From the NCBI GenBank assembly GCA_021325235.1, contig JAJPHN010000017.1, forward strand, positions 1 to 64,000: a DNA stretch of 64,000 bases. The letters run 5' to 3'. Below the pieces are notes generated by a model. It was not told the origin of the DNA, made no database searches, and worked only from the letters and a program-made list of their open reading frames with translations. The position numbers and the translations under genes are program-made. Every line of letters starts with the position of its first letter. The first letter of the stretch is position 1. This DNA comes from Terriglobia bacterium (GTDB lineage Bacteria > Acidobacteriota > Terriglobia > Bryobacterales > Bryobacteraceae). Positions 1 to 10,697 of this stretch are shown piece by piece.

Positions 1-572
1 AAGCCAAATTCGGACGGCTGGAACTCCAGGTTCTCCTGTTCGAAGCGCTCGTACATCTTGGCGGCGGCGTTCAACAGCTGTTCGCGTCGTTTCAGGCGCT
101 CGGCCTGAAGTTCCTTGAGCTCGGCGATGTGGCGGTCGCGTTTGCGGGTGAGGCGTGCGTCCTGGAGTGCGAGGTTGCGAAGCTCGCGGCCTTTCACTTC
201 GTTGATGTGCGCCTCGAGCATCATGGAGCGAACGGGTTCGGGGTGGTCGGCAAAGAGGTCGGCGAAATTGTGGCGGGCGAGAGCCCAGGTGGCTTCGATC
301 AGAACCGGAATGCGGAGCAGACGCCATTCCGTGTCGAGGATGGACTGGACGAGAAATTCTTCCGCCTGGTTGGCGGGCTGCCAACGGGCATAGGCATTGC
401 GCGCGTATTGTTCGTAGACGGCGGCATCGTCGGTCGGGAGCAGGACGGTGGCGCCGGTGAGCGCGTTTTTGACGGCGTTGTGGGAGACCCTGGCTTTGCC
501 TTCAGGCGTTTTCGGACCCGTGGACAGTTCAGAATTGGCGCGATTGGCGGCGATTTGTGCTTCGGTGGCCAT
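1..572 (-). CDS. Hypothetical protein with STGPKTPEGKAR N-terminus (C-terminus beyond window)
   Basis: The reading frame is open from an ATG at 572 to the window edge, giving about 190 residues. It starts MATEAQIAANRANSELSTGP and continues KTPEGKARVSHNAVKNALTG. From memory this opening (ANRAN-x-STGP-[KR]T-x-EGKA) marks a multi-copy uncharacterised family that is frequent in Acidobacteria. The second half is rich in Glu, Arg, Lys and Leu and is predicted helical or coiled-coil. No catalytic motif, signal peptide or membrane segment is visible. The gene is divergent from mazG, with about 98 bp between them. Function unknown; the frame is well supported by the family motif and by the absence of stops. 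Confidence 0.7.
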   Translation of the reverse strand, partial: MATEAQIAANRANSELSTGPKTPEGKARVSHNAVKNALTGATVLLPTDDAAVYEQYARNAYARWQPANQAEEFLVQSILDTEWRLLRIPVLIEATWALARHNFADLFADHPEPVRSMMLEAHINEVKGRELRNLALQDARLTRKRDRHIAELKELQAERLKRREQLLNAAAKMYERFEQENLEFQPSEFG

Positions 573-670
573 GACGAAGGCTTTAGCACGGGCGGAAGGC
601 GAATGAGGACCATTTGCAGCGGACCGGGACGTCCAGGCTCACGTGATTCACTCAAGAATGAAGGGCTTAC

Positions 671-1498
671 GTGGAGAAAGAAAAAAAGACAACGGCTGTG
701 ACTGAGTTCGAGCGGGCGGGCGAGAAGTTTGAGGAGCTGGTGGAGATCATGGCGCGGCTGCGGGCGCCGGGCGGATGTCCATGGGACCGGAAGCAGACGT
801 TCGACACGATCAAGACGTATCTGCTTGAAGAGGCGTACGAGGTGATGGACGCGATCGATGCACGGGACTGGCCGCAGCTGGCCGAAGAGCTGGGGGACTT
901 GCTGCTGCAGCCGGTGTTCTTTGCCGAGATGGCGCGCGAGGAGGGACTTTTTTCGATTGGGGATTCGCTGACCGCGATTACGGAGAAACTGATACGGCGT
1001 CATCCGCATGTGTTCGGGGATGCGCAGGCGAAGACGGCCGAAGAGGTTCTGACGCGCTGGGACGAGATCAAGCGCCAGGAAAAGAACGGCGGGGCGAAGG
1101 CGGAATCGATTCTGGATGGGGTGCCGCGAGCGCTGCCGGCGCTGATGGAGGCGAACAAAATTGGACACAAAGTAGCGAAGGTTGGTTTCGAGTGGCCGAA
1201 CGTGGAGGGTGTCTTCGACAAGCTGCGCGAAGAGACCGAGGAATTGCGGGAGGCGTGCGCGCGCGGGGATCAGGAGCATATTGAACACGAGATCGGCGAT
1301 CTGCTGTTCAACGTGGTGAACCTGGCGCGGCATTTGAAGGTGGATCCGGAGCAGGCGCTGCGGAAGATGAACGGGCGGTTTCGCGCGCGCTTTGGATATA
1401 TCGAGCGGAAAATTGCGGCGGGCGGCGGAAAGGTGGAGGAATCCTCGCTCGAGCAGATGGAAGAGCTCTGGCAGGAAGCAAAAAATTCAAACGAATAG
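671..1498 (+). CDS. mazG: Nucleoside triphosphate pyrophosphohydrolase MazG
   Basis: MazG hydrolyses (d)NTPs to the monophosphates and pyrophosphate, and serves as a house-cleaning enzyme that also lowers (p)ppGpp-linked stress signals. The 275 residues hold two tandem MazG domains, as in the E. coli enzyme (263 aa). The first starts at the family landmark LRAPGGCPWDRKQT (about residues 30-43), with acidic metal-binding clusters EEAYEVMD (53-60) and EELGD (72-76). The second covers about 160-250, with REETEEL (186-192) and EHEIGD (205-210). The GTG at 671 is the only start giving a complete N-terminus; its Shine-Dalgarno is weak. Both active sites appear intact. Confidence 0.93.
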   Translation: MEKEKKTTAVTEFERAGEKFEELVEIMARLRAPGGCPWDRKQTFDTIKTYLLEEAYEVMDAIDARDWPQLAEELGDLLLQPVFFAEMAREEGLFSIGDSLTAITEKLIRRHPHVFGDAQAKTAEEVLTRWDEIKRQEKNGGAKAESILDGVPRALPALMEANKIGHKVAKVGFEWPNVEGVFDKLREETEELREACARGDQEHIEHEIGDLLFNVVNLARHLKVDPEQALRKMNGRFRARFGYIERKIAAGGGKVEESSLEQMEELWQEAKNSNE

Positions 1499-1561
1499 TA
1501 CCGGCAAGTTCATCCGGCTGGCCAGCAGCCTCGTACAGGCATATGTAAGGGAGGCTGATAC

Positions 1562-2443
1562 ATGGATCATGTTGCGGGCGCGATTACGGCGCCGAAGACG
1601 AATCATGGCCGCAGGAAGTTTTTCAAGGGCCTGGGAAAGATGGCGGCCGGCGGAACGGCGGCGATGCTGTTTGGCGAGCTGCCGGTCTTGCGCGCACAAA
1701 GCACGGGAGCGAGCCAGGATACGGCTAACCAGATCTTTCTCGCGGCGCTGATTGCAGAAGATCTGGCGACGACGTTCTATTACAGCGGACTGGTGGGGAA
1801 GGTGGTGCAGGATCCGAATCTGGCGGGTCCGGGCGGCACGGCCACGAAGCCGAATCCGACGAACAGCAATATCCCCAATCTGGATTATGTGCGGGCGGCG
1901 CTGAATCAGGAGATTCAGCATGCGGATCTGCTGCGCACGGTGGGAAATTTCGGGAAGGATGCCTCGACCGATCCGTACCAGACGTTTTATTTTCCGGCCG
2001 GGACATTCGACACGCTGAATAATTTCATCGCGACACTGGAAGCGCTGGAGAACGCGTTCATCGGGGCGTATCTGAATGCGATTCGCGAATTTGCGTCGCT
2101 GGCATCGCGCAGCGGAGAGCGCGGTGTGCCGAATGGTCCGTATGGCGGGCCGTACAGCGCGGCGCAGCTCGAGTATTTTGCAGAGGTGGCGGGCTCGATT
2201 CTGGGCGTGGAGGCGGAGCATCGCGTGCTGGGGCGAGTGATCACGAATACGCCGCAGGCAAACAACCTCAATTACGAGCAGACGGATGGATTGACGAGCG
2301 TGTATCACGGGTCGAGCTCTGCAGTGGCAGCGCTGACGCCGTTTCTGAATCCGAATACGGGTCCGGCGGTATCGCTTTCGACGGCGTTGTATGACGCGAA
2401 GATGATCGGGCTGAATTCGACGGGCACGATTCCGCCGCAGTAA
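1562..2443 (+). CDS. Tat-exported ferritin-like domain protein
   Basis: A 293-residue secreted protein of the ferritin-like (Ferritin_2/DUF4439-type) group. A twin-arginine signal RRKFFKG lies at 17-23, followed by a hydrophobic stretch and a likely cleavage site near LRA-QS (43-47). The mature part has the spaced acidic/His residues of a four-helix di-metal bundle: Glu66 in AEDLATTFYY, Glu117-x-x-His120, Glu163 and Glu217-x-x-His220 in VEAEHR. A strong Shine-Dalgarno (TAAGGGAGG, 1546-1554) fixes the ATG. Only 16 bp separate it from the PEP-CTERM gene, so the two are probably co-transcribed. It may bind iron or manganese outside the cytoplasm; substrate unknown. Confidence 0.82.
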   Translation: MDHVAGAITAPKTNHGRRKFFKGLGKMAAGGTAAMLFGELPVLRAQSTGASQDTANQIFLAALIAEDLATTFYYSGLVGKVVQDPNLAGPGGTATKPNPTNSNIPNLDYVRAALNQEIQHADLLRTVGNFGKDASTDPYQTFYFPAGTFDTLNNFIATLEALENAFIGAYLNAIREFASLASRSGERGVPNGPYGGPYSAAQLEYFAEVAGSILGVEAEHRVLGRVITNTPQANNLNYEQTDGLTSVYHGSSSAVAALTPFLNPNTGPAVSLSTALYDAKMIGLNSTGTIPPQ

Positions 2444-2459
2444 GGAGAGAGGCACAAAC

Positions 2460-3113
2460 ATGCTGAAGAGAACTCTTTTGGCTGCGGTTTTCTGCGCGCT
2501 CTCGAGTGGAGCAATGTTGGCGTCGTCGATTTGCCCGTCGACGCCGACGACCACGACGGACTGCGACTTCGTGATCACGATCGCGAGTTCGGGGACGGCT
2601 TCGGTGGCGAAGGTGCCGGGGTCAACGCCGTTTAACACGGCCATGACGCTGGTGGATGGAACGATGGTGCCGGGCGGGAATGGCTCGCTGGTGGGAGTGG
2701 TGAACGACTACGCGAAGCCGCTCGCGACGTTAACGATCGAAGGCGCCGGAGCGAATACGGGTATATTCGATTTCGATTTCAACGGAATCTGCATCTACAC
2801 GAAAGCAGCGTATTGCGCGACGGCAGCGACCGGGTATGAAGGGCCGACGACGACGTTCGGCAATCTGAAGCCGGGGACGAATCCATTTGAGACGGCGATC
2901 GCGACGGTGATGTTCCATCCGGGTCTGGCAATGGGCGCGGACACATATTTCGCGCTGGAGGGTAGTGCGGCCGATATCGAGGCGAACGGCGGGCTGAAAG
3001 TGCTCGGAGAAACTTTCGGCAGCACGACGGCAACGCCTGAACCGGCCGCACTCGCTCTGCTCGGGTTGGGCGGGTCGCTGCTTTATCTCCTCCGCTGGCG
3101 GCGGCCAAACTAA
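2460..3113 (+). CDS. PEP-CTERM sorted extracellular protein
   Basis: 217 residues with a Sec signal peptide (about 1-21) and a classical C-terminal sorting signal: TPEP at 192-195, then a hydrophobic helix (ALALLGLGG..LLYLL) and a basic end RWRR. Such proteins are cleaved and anchored by an exosortase (EpsH/XrtA type), usually together with exopolysaccharide export; no exosortase is in this window. The middle part is Thr/Gly/Ala-rich with four Cys (two near residues 25 and 35) and no known catalytic motif. Shine-Dalgarno AAGGAGAG sits just after the stop of the ferritin-like gene, suggesting a two-gene secreted unit. Confidence 0.85.
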   Translation: MLKRTLLAAVFCALSSGAMLASSICPSTPTTTTDCDFVITIASSGTASVAKVPGSTPFNTAMTLVDGTMVPGGNGSLVGVVNDYAKPLATLTIEGAGANTGIFDFDFNGICIYTKAAYCATAATGYEGPTTTFGNLKPGTNPFETAIATVMFHPGLAMGADTYFALEGSAADIEANGGLKVLGETFGSTTATPEPAALALLGLGGSLLYLLRWRRPN

Positions 3114-3147
3114 GCGTTGCCGTAGCGGCAGCGCGCGGTTCGCGGAA

Positions 3148-4296
3148 TTATTTTGCGGACTGTTTCATGGACGCTGCGGTTCGTTCGACCTGTCGCATGA
3201 GCCGCAGCGTATTTTCTCCGTAGATCTTTTTGATGTCGGCGACGGAGTAGCCCTTTTCGAGCAAGGCGCGGGTGAGTGCGGGAAATTTCGAGACGTCTTC
3301 GAGACCGGTGGGCGCGCAGTCGATGCCATCGAAGTCGGTGCCGAGGCCGATAGCATCGATGCCGGCGATCTGGCGCACGTGATCCATGTGAGCGACGACA
3401 TCGGCGAGAGTGGCGTGGGGTTCGCCGGGACGCGCGACAAAATTGCAGTAGAAATTGATCTGGATGACGCCGCCTTTTTTTGCCAGAGCGCGGATCATGT
3501 CGTCGGTCATGTTGCGGGGAACGTCGGTGAGCGCGCGGGTGGCGGAGTGCGAGGCGATCAGCGGCGCCTGGCTGACTTCCAGAGCATCGTAGAACGTTTT
3601 GTCGGCGACGTGCGAGATATCGACCATCATGCCGAGGCGGTTCATTTCGCGGATGAAGTCCTTGCCCTGCGGAGTGAGCCCGTTGTGGTGCTGGACGTCT
3701 GGCTTGTTGATATCGCCGGAGGAATCGGCCCAGTTATTGGTGTTGGTGTGGGTCAGGGTCATGTAGCGGATGCCGAGGCGGTAGTAATCACGTAGCAGAC
3801 GCGGGCTGTCCTCGATGGCGTGGCCACCTTCGAGTCCCATCAGCGCTGCGATTTTGTGGTGCTTGTGAGCGCGGACGATGTCGTCGGCGGTGAGGGCGAA
3901 TTGGAATGTATCGGGATAACGATCGATGATGTCGTGGCGAACGGTATCGATCATCTCGAGCGCGCGATGGGCGGAGTGGTTGCCATCGACGTATTTTGAG
4001 GCGACATAAACAGAGAAGAAGACAGCACCGACGCCACCCTGCCTGAGGCGCGCGATGTTGGTCATGGTGCTGGTGGAGGTGCCGATATCGGCGCCATCGA
4101 CGGTGAAGCTGGGGATGTCGTTGTGGGTGTCGATGAGGATCGCGGATTTGGTGATCTTCTGAACTTCGGCGTCAATTGCCGATTGCTGAGTCTTCGCCCC
4201 GCTGAAAAGGCGCGGGCTCATCTTTGAGTTTGTCGGAGGTGCGGCGAGCATAAGAGAAGCGGCGAGCGCGGGAATGCTGTGGAGGAGTTTAGCCAT
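3148..4296 (-). CDS. Membrane dipeptidase (peptidase M19)
   Basis: 382-residue zinc dipeptidase of the renal-dipeptidase family, probably periplasmic. The N-terminus has a signal-like hydrophobic stretch (MAKLLHSIPALAASLMLAAP). Metal-site motifs are present: DTHND (His58, Asp60), MGLEGGHA (Glu156), ISHVAD (His229), IASHSATRAL (His250) and GLGTDFDGI (Asp321). Residues about 26-37, between signal and catalytic domain, are encoded by a degenerate copy of the hairpin repeat that occurs three times at 5680-5796. The ATG at 4296 has no clear Shine-Dalgarno. The gene diverges from the MauE-like gene with only 34 bp between starts. Bacterial members cleave dipeptides or act in amino-acid salvage; the substrate is unknown here. 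Confidence 0.92.
   Translation of the reverse strand: MAKLLHSIPALAASLMLAAPPTNSKMSPRLFSGAKTQQSAIDAEVQKITKSAILIDTHNDIPSFTVDGADIGTSTSTMTNIARLRQGGVGAVFFSVYVASKYVDGNHSAHRALEMIDTVRHDIIDRYPDTFQFALTADDIVRAHKHHKIAALMGLEGGHAIEDSPRLLRDYYRLGIRYMTLTHTNTNNWADSSGDINKPDVQHHNGLTPQGKDFIREMNRLGMMVDISHVADKTFYDALEVSQAPLIASHSATRALTDVPRNMTDDMIRALAKKGGVIQINFYCNFVARPGEPHATLADVVAHMDHVRQIAGIDAIGLGTDFDGIDCAPTGLEDVSKFPALTRALLEKGYSVADIKKIYGENTLRLMRQVERTAASMKQSAK
4187..4222. repeat. Degenerate hairpin-repeat copy inside the dipeptidase gene
   Basis: This stretch matches the 39-bp tandem unit at 5680-5796 almost base for base (shared TGAGTCTTCGCC start and GCGCGGGCTCAT end), with one inserted base and a few substitutions in the hairpin. 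On the minus strand it encodes MSPRLFSGAKTQ in frame, between the signal peptide and the mature dipeptidase. Confidence 0.75.
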
Positions 4297-4330
4297 TGAG
4301 TCTGCACATCAGAATACAATTGAGAAAGAA

Positions 4331-5263
4331 ATGCAGGCAGCAATCGCAGATTCAAACGAGATACCGTCGTCGCGCGCGCAGGCCGGATGGCAGCGAAATG
4401 CAGCGGCGATTGCGGCGATTTTGCTCGGGATTGTTTTTCTGGTGTCGGGCGGATGGAAGGTGCTGAGTCCGTTTAAGACGGGCGAACTGCTGGAGCAGGC
4501 GCAGGTGCCGGCGGGATGGGGCGCGATCGGCGCGGCGGTGCTGGGCACGATTGAACTGCTGGCGGCGTTCCTGCTGTTCGTGCCGCGATTACGGCGCTGG
4601 GGCGGATTGCTGGGCTCGGCGTTGCTGGTGTTTTTTATCGGCTGGATCGCGTTTTATTACCAGAAGCTGGTGGGGCACGAGTGCAGCTGTTTTCCGATTA
4701 TCAAGCGCACAGTGGGGCCGGGATTTTTCGTCGGCGACGGAATTATGCTGCTGCTCGGGATTGCGGCGTTTGCGTGGTCGGCGCGAGTGGTGCGTAGTAA
4801 GTTGCCGGCGTTTGCGGCGGTGCTGCTGGCGGCTCTGGCGGCGGTGAGTTTTGGGGTGAATGCGGCAGAACGGTCGCATGCGCAGGTGCCGACGCCGGTG
4901 GTCGTGGATGGCAAGCCGGCGAATTTAGCGGAGGGGAAGGTATTTCTGTTTTTCTACGATCCTTCGTGCATGCATTGTGATGCGGCGGCGAAGTTCATGT
5001 CGAAGCTGGACTGGGGATCGACGCGCATCGTGGCGATACCGACGATCAATCCGCAGTGGGCGGCGAGCTTTCTGCACGATACGCATTTCAAGCAGGCGGA
5101 GACAAGTCTGGAATATACGAAATTGAAGAAGGCGTTTCCGTTTGGCGATCCGCCGTATGGGGTGGCGCTGGAGGATGGGCGGGTGAAGCAGACGTTTACG
5201 CAGATGCAGTTCAATGAGCCTTCGCCAGCGCCGGATTTGAAGAAGCTGGGGTTTGTGCGCTAA
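4331..5263 (+). CDS. MauE/DoxX-like membrane protein fused to a thioredoxin-like domain
   Basis: 310 residues. Four to five membrane helices (about 24-40, 64-85, 91-111, 132-150, 159-178) resemble the MauE/DoxX group, with a C-x-C (Cys118, Cys120) after the third helix. A C-terminal thioredoxin-like domain follows, with the redox pair Cys213-Met-His-Cys216 in FFYDPSCMHC. MauE-type proteins are thought to feed electrons or disulfides to periplasmic partners, so the fusion suggests a self-contained thiol/disulfide relay. The ATG at 4331 is preferred: GAGAAAGAA lies just upstream, and an earlier start would run into the divergent dipeptidase gene. Partner and substrate unknown. Confidence 0.75.
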   Translation: MQAAIADSNEIPSSRAQAGWQRNAAAIAAILLGIVFLVSGGWKVLSPFKTGELLEQAQVPAGWGAIGAAVLGTIELLAAFLLFVPRLRRWGGLLGSALLVFFIGWIAFYYQKLVGHECSCFPIIKRTVGPGFFVGDGIMLLLGIAAFAWSARVVRSKLPAFAAVLLAALAAVSFGVNAAERSHAQVPTPVVVDGKPANLAEGKVFLFFYDPSCMHCDAAAKFMSKLDWGSTRIVAIPTINPQWAASFLHDTHFKQAETSLEYTKLKKAFPFGDPPYGVALEDGRVKQTFTQMQFNEPSPAPDLKKLGFVR

Positions 5264-5351
5264 AGCGCCACTTCGGCCCCGACCAAGAGCGGGTCGGATC
5301 TGCGAATCGGCAGATGGAGTCTTGCGTTGGGTTTTGTATGCGGGAAATGAA

Positions 5352-5378
5352 AAAGGCAGGCTCGAGCGGCCTGCCTTT
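5352..5378. terminator. Bidirectional intrinsic terminator
   Basis: A perfect 9-bp stem (AAAGGCAGG / CCTGCCTTT) around a 9-nt loop, flanked by A and T tracts. It sits between the converging MauE-like gene (ends 5263) and the DUF465 gene (ends 5390), so it can serve both. Confidence 0.85.
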
Positions 5379-5389
5379 GTTTCCATGCT

Positions 5390-5629
5390 TCACGCTACGC
5401 CGGCGTGTTTATGCTGCTCGATGATTTCGAGCATCTGATCCTTTAATTGCAGTTTGAGCTTTTTGAGGCGCTGCTCTTCGAGCTCGTCGTCGGGCGTGAC
5501 GTGGCATTTGGCTTCGATCTCTTCGATCTGATGTTTCAAGCGCGCATGCTGCTCGGCGAGCGTGCGGAAGTGCTCGTCGGTAGAGAGCAGATGCGCCTTC
5601 AATTCTTCGTCTTGCGTGTGATTCTCCAA
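5390..5629 (-). CDS. DUF465/YdcH-like small coiled-coil protein
   Basis: 79 residues of the DUF465 (YdcH) family: almost entirely charged helix, with DEHFRTLAEQHARLKHQIEEIE followed by DDELEEQRLKKLKLQLKDQM, the typical arrangement of two helices forming a coiled coil. Family members are abundant small cytoplasmic proteins of unknown function. The start is TTG at 5629, supported by AAGGAG about eight bases upstream. The hairpin-repeat array lies immediately upstream, within its probable leader or promoter. Confidence 0.85.
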   Translation of the reverse strand: MENHTQDEELKAHLLSTDEHFRTLAEQHARLKHQIEEIEAKCHVTPDDELEEQRLKKLKLQLKDQMLEIIEQHKHAGVA

Positions 5630-5679
5630 AGGGAAACTCCTTTTCAGGGTGATGATCCACGCCGAGTTCGATTACAACA

Positions 5680-5796
5680 TTGAGTCTTCGCCTCGCTGAG
5701 AGGCGCGGGCTCATCCAGTTGAGTCTTCGCCTCGCTGAGAGACGCGGGCTCATCCAGTTGAGTCTTCGCCTCGCTGAGAGACGCGGGCTCATCCAA
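5680..5796. repeat. Three tandem copies of a 39-bp hairpin repeat
   Basis: Three head-to-tail units of exactly 39 bp (5680-5718, 5719-5757, 5758-5796). Units 2 and 3 are identical until the last bases. The core of unit 1 is a perfect stem-loop CGCCTC-GCTGA-GAGGCG; units 2 and 3 carry one stem mismatch. The period is a multiple of three, so both strands can be read through (minus strand WMSPRLSARRRLN repeated). I do not regard that as a gene. A fourth, degenerate copy is at 4187-4222. Confidence 0.92.
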
Positions 5797-5882
5797 ATTT
5801 CAGAACAATCGGGCCCGGTGGGTTTCGAGTGCATTCGTTACTCGCGGCAGGCGCGGGCGCGCCCGTCTCCCAAAAATTAGCA

Positions 5883-6311
5883 CTATTTCATCTGCATGAC
5901 AATAGCGGTTTCGACGGGGTGGCTGTAATACTTCGGGCGGCGGTGCAGTTCGGTGAAGCCTAATTTCCGGTAAAGTGTTTGCGCGGGTACATTCGATTCG
6001 CGTACTTCGAGGAAATAAATTGCACCGGAGGCGAGTTCGTTTTCGAGAAGACGAGTGGCGATTCCGGCGCGGCGGAAATCGGGATGGGTGGCGACGTTGA
6101 GAATTTCACGCTCGGCGCGGGTGTGGGTATTGCCGGAGAAAACTTCGCGCACGACGATGAAGCCGGCGATCTGGCCGTCGCATTCGGCGACGGTGCAACG
6201 GTCCTTCAGGAAATCGGCGGGGCGCCAGCGTGGACGCGAGAAGGACTGCTCTTCGATGGCGAGGAGGGCGGGCAGATCGTCGCGAGTGGCCGGGCGGAGG
6301 AGCAGATTCAC
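5883..6311 (-). CDS. rimI: GNAT acetyltransferase, RimI-like
   Basis: 142 residues of the GNAT fold. RimI acetylates the N-terminal alanine of ribosomal protein bS18. The acetyl-CoA site is seen as EILNVATHPDFRRAGIATRLL (the R-x-x-G-x-A loop), followed by FLEVRESNVPAQTLYRKLGF, the RimI signature in which ExRxxNxxAxxLYxxxGF helps bind substrate. The start is GTG at 6311, overlapping the stop of the TPR gene (GTGA). The usual neighbours tsaB/tsaD are absent, so a different protein substrate remains possible. Confidence 0.82.
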   Translation of the reverse strand: MNLLLRPATRDDLPALLAIEEQSFSRPRWRPADFLKDRCTVAECDGQIAGFIVVREVFSGNTHTRAEREILNVATHPDFRRAGIATRLLENELASGAIYFLEVRESNVPAQTLYRKLGFTELHRRPKYYSHPVETAIVMQMK

Positions 6312-7963
6312 TGCAGAGTGAGACTCGAGACTTCGCCGGTGGTTTGGAGATTGTCGTCGATGGCGGCGCGGTACTGGAGCGAGATACGGCGCGTGCGGGA
6401 GGGAGTGCCGCAGGGAAGTTGGGCGCCGCTGTCTTTGGAAAGAAAGAGCTGGGTGACGGCGCCGGTTTTGTCTTTTACGGCGAGACGCCAGCCGGACTTG
6501 AGGCAGTCGACGCGGGTGAGAGTACCGGACAATTTTTTGTTGCCGGCGAGCGAATCCCAGGAGACGACATCGGAGGGTTTTTCGGCGCCAGCGGCCTGAT
6601 CGGCTGCTGCGTTGGCTTTCTGCTCGGCGGCGTGGATGCGTGCCATTTCGGCTTGCTGAGCCTGCTGATCGGCGAGATGGGCGGCATCGCGTTCGCGGCG
6701 GCGGGCGGCTTCGTCGGCTGCGAGACGCTCGTCTTCGTAAGACAGACGGAGCTGGTGGACGCGGTCGCGCTCGGCGTCATTCGGTGCGGAATCTTCCGCG
6801 CGCAGCCAGGAGCCCTGCGCGGCGGTGCCTTCGCCGGCGGCGGTTTCGAGTTTGGCGAGTTCGATCCAATGATCGGTGGAGCGGGGATCCAGCTGGAGGG
6901 CTTGTTTCAGGAGGGCTTCTTTCTCGGCGGGCGTGGCGGCGAGTTCGGCCTGCTGGTAAATGGGCTCGGCCCAGCGATCATTGATCTGCGCGGCGCGCCT
7001 TAAGAGCGGGAGCGCTTCGGCGGGGGACAAACCTTCGGCTGCATCGACGTAAACGGGCGCGCTGCGGCTGCCGGCGCGGATGGCATTGTCCAGATTTACT
7101 TTCGGATTTTCATGCTGCTGCATATCGAGCGAGGCGAGACCTTCGTAGCCGAGTGCGGCGGCATCGCCACCAGCCCCGATCGCGGTTTTGTAAGCAGCCG
7201 CCGCGCGCCCGGGATCGTGCGCGGCGTAGCAATCGGCGAGATAGACATTTGCGATGACGGGATCGAGCGAATGCACGCCGAAATCGCGCTTGGGATCGAG
7301 AGGACGGCCGGAAACGGCGACCGCTTCCCAATGGCCCGCGGCGAGATTGGCCTCTGCTTCGGCTTCCAGTTCGGCGCTGGACTTACCGAAGGCGTTGCGC
7401 TCGGCTGCGGCGAGTGTGCTGCCGCCGCGGAGAGCGGTGAGGAAGATGTGGAAGCTGGCGCTGTATTCGAATTTCGTGGCGAAGAGCTGCATGCGGGCCC
7501 AGGCGAGATCGGGATGGGCGGGTGCGCTGCCCCAGGTGACGCGGCTGCCGTGGGCTTCGAGGGTGGAAAAAAGCGCGCGCAGACCGGATTCGACTTCGGC
7601 CGGCAGACGGGGTGTGTTGGCGTCGAGCAGAAGGCCGGCTACTTCGGCGAGCGGAGGACGATCGTTGGGCGCGGCCAGCCACAGATACTGACCGTTCTGC
7701 AGAGCGAAAGCGCCGGTGGGCGTGGCCTCGCGGGTGAGCAGAAAGCGAATGGGCCAGAGGCTGCGGAGATCTTTGCTTTCGAGCAGATTGCCGAGGACCC
7801 AGCGGGTTTGCTCGAGTTGCGTGAGAGTGTCGCGGGCGGCGGCTTCGTCGGTGTCGGTGGTGACGTAGAAGGGACCGATGTTGAGCTCGGTCCAGCGATC
7901 GCGGGCGGCGAGGGTGAGCGTAACGAAAAACAGAGCGGCAATGGTGCGGAGCGCGCGCGCCAC
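6308..7963 (-). CDS. Secreted TPR-repeat protein
   Basis: 551 residues beginning with a signal peptide (MARALRTIAALFFVTLTLAA). An N-terminal region (about 20-190) resembles DUF1570-type domains of peptidase-like fold but lacks a visible HExxH zinc motif. Degenerate tetratricopeptide repeats follow (about 190-390), then an Arg/Glu/Ala-rich coiled coil (about 395-460). A C-terminal domain (about 470-551) contains SGTLTRVDCLKSGWRL. The GTG at 7963 lies a few bases after the histidine kinase stop, so it may belong to the same transcript. Probably a periplasmic scaffold; no specific function recognised. Confidence 0.75.
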   Translation of the reverse strand: MARALRTIAALFFVTLTLAARDRWTELNIGPFYVTTDTDEAAARDTLTQLEQTRWVLGNLLESKDLRSLWPIRFLLTREATPTGAFALQNGQYLWLAAPNDRPPLAEVAGLLLDANTPRLPAEVESGLRALFSTLEAHGSRVTWGSAPAHPDLAWARMQLFATKFEYSASFHIFLTALRGGSTLAAAERNAFGKSSAELEAEAEANLAAGHWEAVAVSGRPLDPKRDFGVHSLDPVIANVYLADCYAAHDPGRAAAAYKTAIGAGGDAAALGYEGLASLDMQQHENPKVNLDNAIRAGSRSAPVYVDAAEGLSPAEALPLLRRAAQINDRWAEPIYQQAELAATPAEKEALLKQALQLDPRSTDHWIELAKLETAAGEGTAAQGSWLRAEDSAPNDAERDRVHQLRLSYEDERLAADEAARRRERDAAHLADQQAQQAEMARIHAAEQKANAAADQAAGAEKPSDVVSWDSLAGNKKLSGTLTRVDCLKSGWRLAVKDKTGAVTQLFLSKDSGAQLPCGTPSRTRRISLQYRAAIDDNLQTTGEVSSLTLQ

Positions 7964-7970
7964 GCTTTCA

Positions 7971-10247
<2,277 letters not shown>

Positions 10248-10268: not shown

Positions 10269-10697
10269 CTATTTGATTTTCAGAATTTTGACGCTGTTGA
10301 GGACAGCGGAAGAGCGGACGTAGCCGATGGCACCCCTGGTGCGGGCGATATAGGCGATGAGTTCTTCGTCGGACGCAAAGCTCTTGGGCATCGCGCCGCG
10401 GCCGGTGAAAAGCAGGCTGCGGTAGTAGGTCATGAGGGCGGAATCGGAACGGCCGATGAATTCCTTGAGGAAGGCGCTGTAGGCGGGGCCAGGTTTTTCG
10501 AGCACCGGCTCGACGCGTCCGGCGCCGGGAAGCGAAGTCCTGGTGAGCAGGAAGATGCGGGCCAGATCGTCGCGCGAGAGCTCGGCGACGGCGAGGGTAC
10601 GATTGGCGATAATGGTCAGCTCGCTGCTCGAGGCGTGCAGTGCAGTGCGGGTCAGCAAGACGGCCGCGAAAGCGAGATAGGAGGCGCGCTTCAGCAT
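10269..10697 (-). CDS. Small phosphate-binding-like (PstS/PBP fold) periplasmic protein
   Basis: 142 residues with a signal peptide (about 1-22, cleavage near LHA-SS). The remainder resembles the short PBP-like proteins related to PstS: ELTIIANRTLAVAELSRDDLARIFLL near the start and a C-terminal RGAIGYVRSSA, the GAIGY stretch being characteristic. Such half-length proteins often accompany two-component kinases. The gene immediately precedes the hybrid kinase, so a role as ligand sensor for that kinase is a reasonable inference. The ligand is not determined by the sequence. Confidence 0.8.
   Translation of the reverse strand: MLKRASYLAFAAVLLTRTALHASSSELTIIANRTLAVAELSRDDLARIFLLTRTSLPGAGRVEPVLEKPGPAYSAFLKEFIGRSDSALMTYYRSLLFTGRGAMPKSFASDEELIAYIARTRGAIGYVRSSAVLNSVKILKIK

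Follow-up and report, generated by a model that had tools for sequence, protein, structure and literature searches.

The DNA analysed here, a 64,000-nt stretch of a Terriglobia bacterium contig (the window), carries an M19 membrane dipeptidase gene in which an initial annotation noticed a degenerate copy of a hairpin repeat. Is this copy a member of a repeat family that was inserted into the gene, and if so, how did the reading frame survive? On the basis of sequence comparison, we consider that the segment is probably a short palindromic element, non-autonomous and inserted in frame, with a probability of about 85%. Features are collected in Table 1.

Table 1. Features of the dipeptidase locus, the neighbouring repeat array and the ArsM insert of strain KBS 96
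Feature	Position in window	Strand	Basis and remarks
M19 membrane dipeptidase gene	3148..4296	(-)	382 aa, uninterrupted frame; Pfam PF01244, E 8.3e-109
Catalytic M19 domain	3190..4152	(-)	Residues 49-369 from the Pfam match, coordinates converted by hand; element lies upstream
Start and signal-peptide-like segment, 5' of the insertion	4223..4296	(-)	Assigned by eye
Palindromic element core inside the peptidase gene	4186..4223	(-)	38-nt form with one additional loop base; models R1 and R2
Inferred inserted segment, 42 nt	4181..4222	(-)	Reconstruction and orthologues; placement ambiguous by a few bases
Array unit 1	5680..5718	(-)	Direct repeats; R1 65.4 bits
Array unit 2	5719..5757	(-)	Direct repeats; R1 64.5 bits
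Array unit 3	5758..5796	(-)	Direct repeats; R1 64.5 bits
ArsM insert of KBS 96			Peptide stretch DEPAIVSEAKTQ

The gene belongs to the M19 family, as positions 3-319 of the 319-position PF01244 profile match residues 49-369. Upstream of this domain, residues 26-37 of the 382 codons read MSPRLFSGAKTQ. We used two covariance models of the repeat: R1 includes the window copy, and R2 was built from 37 copies outside genes, because circularity was to be avoided; by our home-made gene calls, a few of these 37 overlap the end of an ORF by up to 20 nt. R1 matched the window copy, on which it was partly trained, with 51 bits (E 3.4e-9 for the genome). R2 gave 52.8 bits (E 3.4e-10 in 115 kb), which places the copy in the family. 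A weight matrix made from the same copies as R2 scored the window copy at 52.5, and the highest score in 300 codon-order shuffles of the gene was 8.6. A direct-repeat search also tied the copy to the three 39-nt units at 5680-5796, relative to which it has one extra loop base. The presence of a repeat copy in the dipeptidase gene is thus confirmed: the degenerate copy annotated at 4187-4222 is real, with a core at 4186-4223(-). Its kinship with the array also held, but the annotated unit of 39 bp did not, as 39 nt is the spacing of the array and the conserved core is 37-38 nt long. The copy is merely 38 nt long and lies in a weakly constrained region, where a linker may look repeat-like by chance or its residues may be ancestral. 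Given the score of a model trained without in-gene copies, the distance from the shuffles and 13 orthologues without these residues (below), such a resemblance is hardly credible.

Relatives show the empty site. Some M19 match was found in 37 of 40 genomes (the source genome of the window included), and 29 M19 loci outside the source genome were fetched. Thirteen were examined at the N-terminus, representing 10 of the 16 other genus genomes and three of the family; in the remaining genus genomes, M19 matches were cut off, distant or absent. Four of the 13 (L056-L059) have no ATG start and were read from the open frame. The insertion was missing in all 13, and among them we saw no orthologue that has the same residues without the repeat. 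The initial annotation had asked whether the insertion is present only here; among these 13 orthologues, the alignment agrees with this. Before IDAEV, there are 40 residues in the protein of the source genome and 21-28 in those genus orthologues that start with ATG. When 42 nt (4181-4222) are taken out, the gene reads NSKAIDAEV, compared with NSRKIDKQV or DSKKIDAEV in orthologues. The annotated 12-residue insertion thus stood as an insertion but not in its length: the net insert is best reconstructed at 42 nt, about 14 residues, a value that is blurred by poor alignment of the signal-peptide region and by a gap that the automatic alignment divides. Searching 66 orthologue-bearing loci with R2 gave nothing significant (best match 17.6 bits, E 0.27). 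The sister genome G001 keeps the order MazG, M19, MauE-like, YdcH, RimI and TPR, and no element was found in this syntenic stretch at the peptidase locus among the matches listed. Between MazG and the peptidase, the window additionally contains ferritin-like and PEP-CTERM-type genes (1562-3113, judged by eye), which were unmatched in the eight relative stretches searched, G001 included.

The position of MSPRLFSGAKTQ in frame between a signal peptide and the M19 catalytic domain also agrees with the initial annotation, the signal-peptide-like part being judged by eye. The element contains ATGAGC in frame, and passages of PMC3733652 caution that intragenic repeats near N-termini may reflect mis-called starts. 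Translation might therefore begin at the ATG of the element or downstream of it, which would leave the segment non-coding and the enzyme without a signal peptide. This is very unlikely, since the 24 codons upstream form a signal-peptide-like segment positioned as in the orthologues, and such a reading is inapplicable to the FeoB and CoxI copies described below, which lie deep inside their genes. An AlphaFold model of the peptidase (14 sequences) had a mean pLDDT of 72, with values below 50 at residues 1-35 and also at the conserved residues 49-68; because of the latter, the model tells little about the insert.

What is the element? Its unit is 37-38 nt long, GGATGAGCCCGCGNNN(N)YTCAGCGAGGCGAAGAYTCAA, and occurs as single copies and in short tandem arrays. 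In an alignment of 51 copies, columns 7-12 pair with columns 22-28 in a six-pair stem, GCCCGC / GCG-A-GGC, with a bulged A and a variable loop. Standard pairs occupied 97.4% of the cells of this stem, and RNAalifold returned the identical six-pair stem. The loop takes up all three variable bases as well as the extra base that some copies have. When the stem was taken together with the outer TGA/TCA pairs, 18 cells had two-sided changes, compared with a shuffled mean of 4.3, and none of 500 shuffles was as high; in the set without in-gene copies, there were 13 such cells versus 2.7 in shuffles. Three stem pairs had two-sided changes, a number matched by 41 of 500 shuffles, and we counted this against the best explanation. 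A compensatory swap was also seen in a subfamily with GAGGCC and GAGCCG. These compensatory changes support a predicted bulged hairpin with a variable loop. An earlier candidate, a stem TGAG/YTCA with an inner CGCCTC/GAGGCG drawn from one copy, was rejected because its covariation was no better than that of shuffles. By eye, the consensus of the 51 copies ends in GGATGA and TCAA, or the complements, and neither the tetranucleotide GTAG nor CGTC was found at the palindrome end in these copies. As to the terminal inverted repeats and target-site duplications of MITEs, only the TGA/TCA ends pair, and comparison of filled and empty sites by eye showed no clear target-site duplication: none was convincing in M19, FeoB, CoxI, aldolase or the L147 paralogue. 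Rfam gave no match at gathering scores in positions 1-9000 of the window.

The array lies between a YdcH-like and a RimI-like gene (judged by eye). The gap between these genes is 256 nt in the source genome and 141 nt in G001, and 256 minus the 117 nt of the array is 139. Because the array and the in-gene copy are on the same contig and the same strand, 1.5 kb apart, the latter could have arisen as a local duplicate of the array or by template switching from it, without transposition. Two features, both suggestive only, point away from this: the in-gene copy has its extra loop base and CAGCGGGG in common with the copy at locus L149, on a different contig (C8), and its GCAATC tail is that of the FeoB copy and not that of the array. 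In overall similarity, the in-gene copy is about equally close to the array and to the L149 and FeoB copies. We regard local duplication as quite unlikely, and retain insertion of an element as the preferred reading.

The element is abundant in the source genome and patchy outside it. R1 found at least 42 matches in the source genome with E 0.01 or better, at 30 sites (best 150 of 7,619 candidates scored), most of them between genes; the arrays reach six units. A pattern search, which matched at 22 places, missed the window copy through its one extra base; the reversed pattern had no match in this genome. Among the matches listed, the R1 copies per genus genome were 42, 37, 14, 9 and down to 0. 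When 150 genomes of the family were sampled and 45 candidates scored in each, six genomes, from 3 of the 76 genera, had matches at E 1e-4. Exact pattern matches in a sequence collection came from six stretches, all titled Acidobacteriota or its families. A viral contig (IMG/VR, L308) has a sense copy at 10347-10383, 3 nt before an ATG and between two long ORFs that look phage-structural by eye, with a further match at 6358-6429(-). The element may be carried by phages.

The dipeptidase gene is not the only gene with a copy. A search for further in-frame copies, as the initial annotation had proposed, recovered them in FeoB, CoxI, TrpB and aldolase of the source genome, in ArsM of strain KBS 96 and in a permease of G111; R2 found the FeoB, CoxI, TrpB, ArsM and permease copies, among others, besides the window copy. 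In FeoB, the copy reads DEPAVSSAAKTQ with a net length of 42 nt, and 10 of 10 examined orthologues are empty. For the FeoB and M19 inserts, identical bounds can be chosen, from GATGAG to GCAATC, with 42 nt in either case. In CoxI, SEPASLSKAKTQ follows the Pfam domain with a net length of 39 nt, and all six readable orthologues are empty. TrpB has the C-terminus DEPAFCQRGEDSR, and 13 of 13 examined orthologues end differently. A class II aldolase reads NEPASLSEAKV near its N-terminus, a net 36 nt absent from 8 of 8 examined orthologues; R2 gives this copy a low score (23.5 bits, E 0.0044). An ArsM-like methyltransferase of KBS 96 (G040), which belongs to another genus of the family, has two listed tandem in-frame copies in its C-terminal tail; they read DEPAIVSEAKTQKMDEPAVLSEAKTQ before ACCAPGCCS and are lacking in 14 of 14 examined homologues. 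In G111, from the genus of KBS 96, the one copy among the matches listed is in frame in the permease, as judged by eye against the permease of the source genome (L160) and not against orthologues. Orthologues were taken in through motif patterns (FeoB 10/14; CoxI 7/9, of which one ends before the site; TrpB 13/14; aldolase 8/11; ArsM 14/19). In the peptidase, CoxI, TrpB, aldolase and ArsM, the insert occupies either an end of the core domain or a stretch beyond it.

A multi-copy protein family with the motif ANRANSELSTGPKTPEGK is a repeated target, hit both in frame and out of frame (window 3-572(-), L147, L159, L244, L250 and L255); the members scanned had no Pfam or NCBIfam match. One gene of G009 has two in-frame copies, and others are found in G014, with the same site filled in G016. 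The source genome has two frame-shifting copies in this family, L147 (net 40 nt) and L159. The site filled in L244 (G014) and L127 (G016) reads RKAGLDEAAL.QRAEDS, which suggests a shared, retained in-frame insertion.

How, then, is the frame kept? Three of the six frames of the unit are open. On the sense strand, the DEPA frame is stop-free at both loop lengths, reading DEPAxLSEAKTQ or DEPAxxQRGEDS. Eleven of the 12 in-frame copies read the DEPA frame and the window copy alone reads the MSPR frame (binomial p 4.7e-5 against 1/3, 0.003 against 1/2), in a list assembled by inspection in which some copies may share ancestry. The count omits L148 and L155, whose start is uncertain, L147 and L159, whose frame is broken, L242, which has the insertion of L244, and L120, L127 and L133, which have the L244 site in another species. 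Net insert lengths vary among 36, 39, 40 and 42 nt, those of 36 (aldolase) and 40 (L147) being counted by eye, and this speaks against a frame-aware landing. In view of the varied lengths and the two frame-shifting copies, the in-frame copies are most plausibly those that survived selection. The initial annotation suggested that tolerant linkers can take up the element with the frame intact. The in-frame copies elsewhere and the empty orthologues support this reading of the window segment as a probable tolerated insertion. Keeping the frame is not a property of the element, however, as L147 and L159 are shifted; the in-frame position most plausibly marks the copies that selection spared.

Could the element instead have been recruited, as an RNA hairpin that acts in mRNA leaders and operon gaps or as a peptide tag, so that copies are kept for function? 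Among copies outside genes in the source genome with a downstream gene within 300 nt, 20 were in sense and 2 were not (p 1.2e-4), and in the other genomes pooled, the downstream gene was on the same strand in 16 cases versus 5 (p 0.027). These calls came from a home-made codon-usage gene scorer that produced at least one spurious ORF, and the sites from other genomes in the orientation count number 38, versus 45 in the larger set. A same-strand start codon lay within 15 nt at 10 of 22 sites in the source genome, a count that includes a spurious ORF downstream of L147 and misses the real start at L155. Recruitment would also fit the viral copy just before an ATG, the hairpin kept by compensatory changes and the predominance of the DEPA frame. 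On the other side, the sense bias is missing from G001, which is the second genome rich in copies (3 same versus 4 opposite), and only 2 of 21 sites outside the source genome are near a same-strand start. In the source genome, upstream genes are likewise mainly on the same strand (14 versus 4), as codirectional gaps predict, and short operon gaps could lie behind part of the start-codon proximity. Furthermore, copies are missing in the examined orthologues, most family genomes have no match, the frame count was made by inspection, and recognition of the hairpin by a transposase would maintain the same covariation. We therefore consider recruitment unlikely. It is also doubtful that the element is at once a mobile coding palindrome and a cassette for translation leaders. 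In this reading, the unit lies in sense between the genes of operons in the source genome, its 3' end often 1-13 nt away from a start codon, multiplies there in tandem and can be read through on landing in a protein. Both readings were rated lower because of the missing sense bias in G001. At eight loci of the source genome (L143, L144, L145, L146, L155, L160, L164 and L165), copies end 1-9 nt 5' of a same-strand start; L143 has six tandem units before a gene that looks like a trehalose synthase by eye. These start-adjacent copies could reflect a translation-leader effect or simply short operon gaps, and the arrangement is not general in other genomes.

We return to insertion of a non-autonomous element, our preferred reading. 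Building on the family membership of the window copy, its absence from the examined orthologues, the conserved hairpin and the further in-frame copies, all of which are read directly from the sequences, we propose that the element would be mobilised in trans by a hairpin-recognising ssDNA enzyme of the IS200/RAYT type or similar. It would insert mostly in intergenic gaps and occasionally be retained in genes, if the net length is divisible by three and the reading frame is free of stops. Selection and not mechanism would then lie behind the in-frame bias, and the extra residues would be translated as a neutral or nearly neutral extension. The covarying hairpin fits a single-strand-recognising enzyme that acts in trans, and an RNA role would also explain the covariation.

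In REPtrons, small hairpins are the non-autonomous partners of a Y1 transposase (RAYT). The genus has 52 Y1-transposase matches. R2 found the element at none of the 30 Y1 loci searched among these, with up to 1.5 kb of flank each, and R1 gave one chance-level match at the same loci (16.6 bits, E 0.11). One Y1 match outside these 30 is about 2.5 kb from a copy (contig C40 of G014). G002, G006 and G011 carry copies, yet they gave no Y1 match. The single Y1 match of the source genome is flanked by a different repeat, ACCGA.CCGCGACC..AGGGAGCGGT, in three copies. At this locus (L081:1294-2770, contig C23), the Y1 gene has weak REP-associated and IS200-type matches below the NCBIfam cut-offs and is surrounded by these three hairpin-like copies (ACCGASCCGCGACC..AGGGAGCGGT); L081 is thus apparently a REPtron of another family. 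The source genome therefore resembles REPtron-bearing genomes in having a Y1 gene flanked by a repeat, but it is another repeat, and the element studied here has no cognate RAYT among the 30 loci.

The findings matter in several ways. Because empty sites are present in close relatives for several genes, insertion boundaries and frame rules can be read directly. The natural insertions in FeoB, cytochrome oxidase, ArsM and dipeptidase can be tested for their effect. Caution is also advised: orthologue-specific inserts of 12-14 residues in this group may be repeat-derived and not adaptive.

How does this family compare with known repeats? Many short repeats are reported for Solibacter in parts of PMC3174227, and the portions of PMC12306157 at hand tabulate palindromes for three Acidobacteriota. 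In literature on REPs, repeats and palindromes in Acidobacteria, Acidobacteriota, Solibacter and Bryobacter, which was mostly open-access and represented chiefly by titles and abstracts, we found no description of this family. According to excerpts of PMC3733652, REPs of the GTAG and CGTC super-families are 20-40-bp hairpins that lie mostly in intergenic, codirectional or convergent gaps, near the 3' end of the preceding gene and separated from the following gene by a variable distance; some are within ORFs, they often form dimers or tandem groups, and CGTC REPs apparently have no dedicated transposase. The present element, a multi-copy, mainly intergenic hairpin of 37-38 nt, falls within the 20-40-nt description of GTAG-tagged REPs and, as far as those excerpts go, shares the intragenic copies and tandem groups. 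It is unlike them in that it has no GTAG or CGTC end and that its copies in the source genome often abut start codons in sense. RPEs, as outlined in sections of PMC10969869 (citing Ogata 2000 and 2002), are palindromic repeats of about 150 bp that are found in frame in unrelated genes and encode a recurrent peptide; the excerpts of PMC3733652 add that RPE sequences of R. conorii have a CGTC end and that the short RPE-4 and RPE-6 are treated as CGTC repeats. In these accounts, the likeness to our element lies in the in-frame insertion, here in M19, FeoB, CoxI, TrpB, aldolase, ArsM and permease, with the DEPA frame in 11 of 12 copies. The difference is that the element measures 37-42 nt, occurs in Acidobacteriota and has no CGTC end, whereas RPEs are about 150 bp long and belong to Rickettsia. 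In-frame palindromes were already known from Rickettsia and some REP-rich genomes; what is new here is a compact, separate family in Acidobacteriota. In summary, we regard the element as a new family of a known kind, the intragenic REP/RPE-like palindromes, which is set apart from the RPEs by their description.
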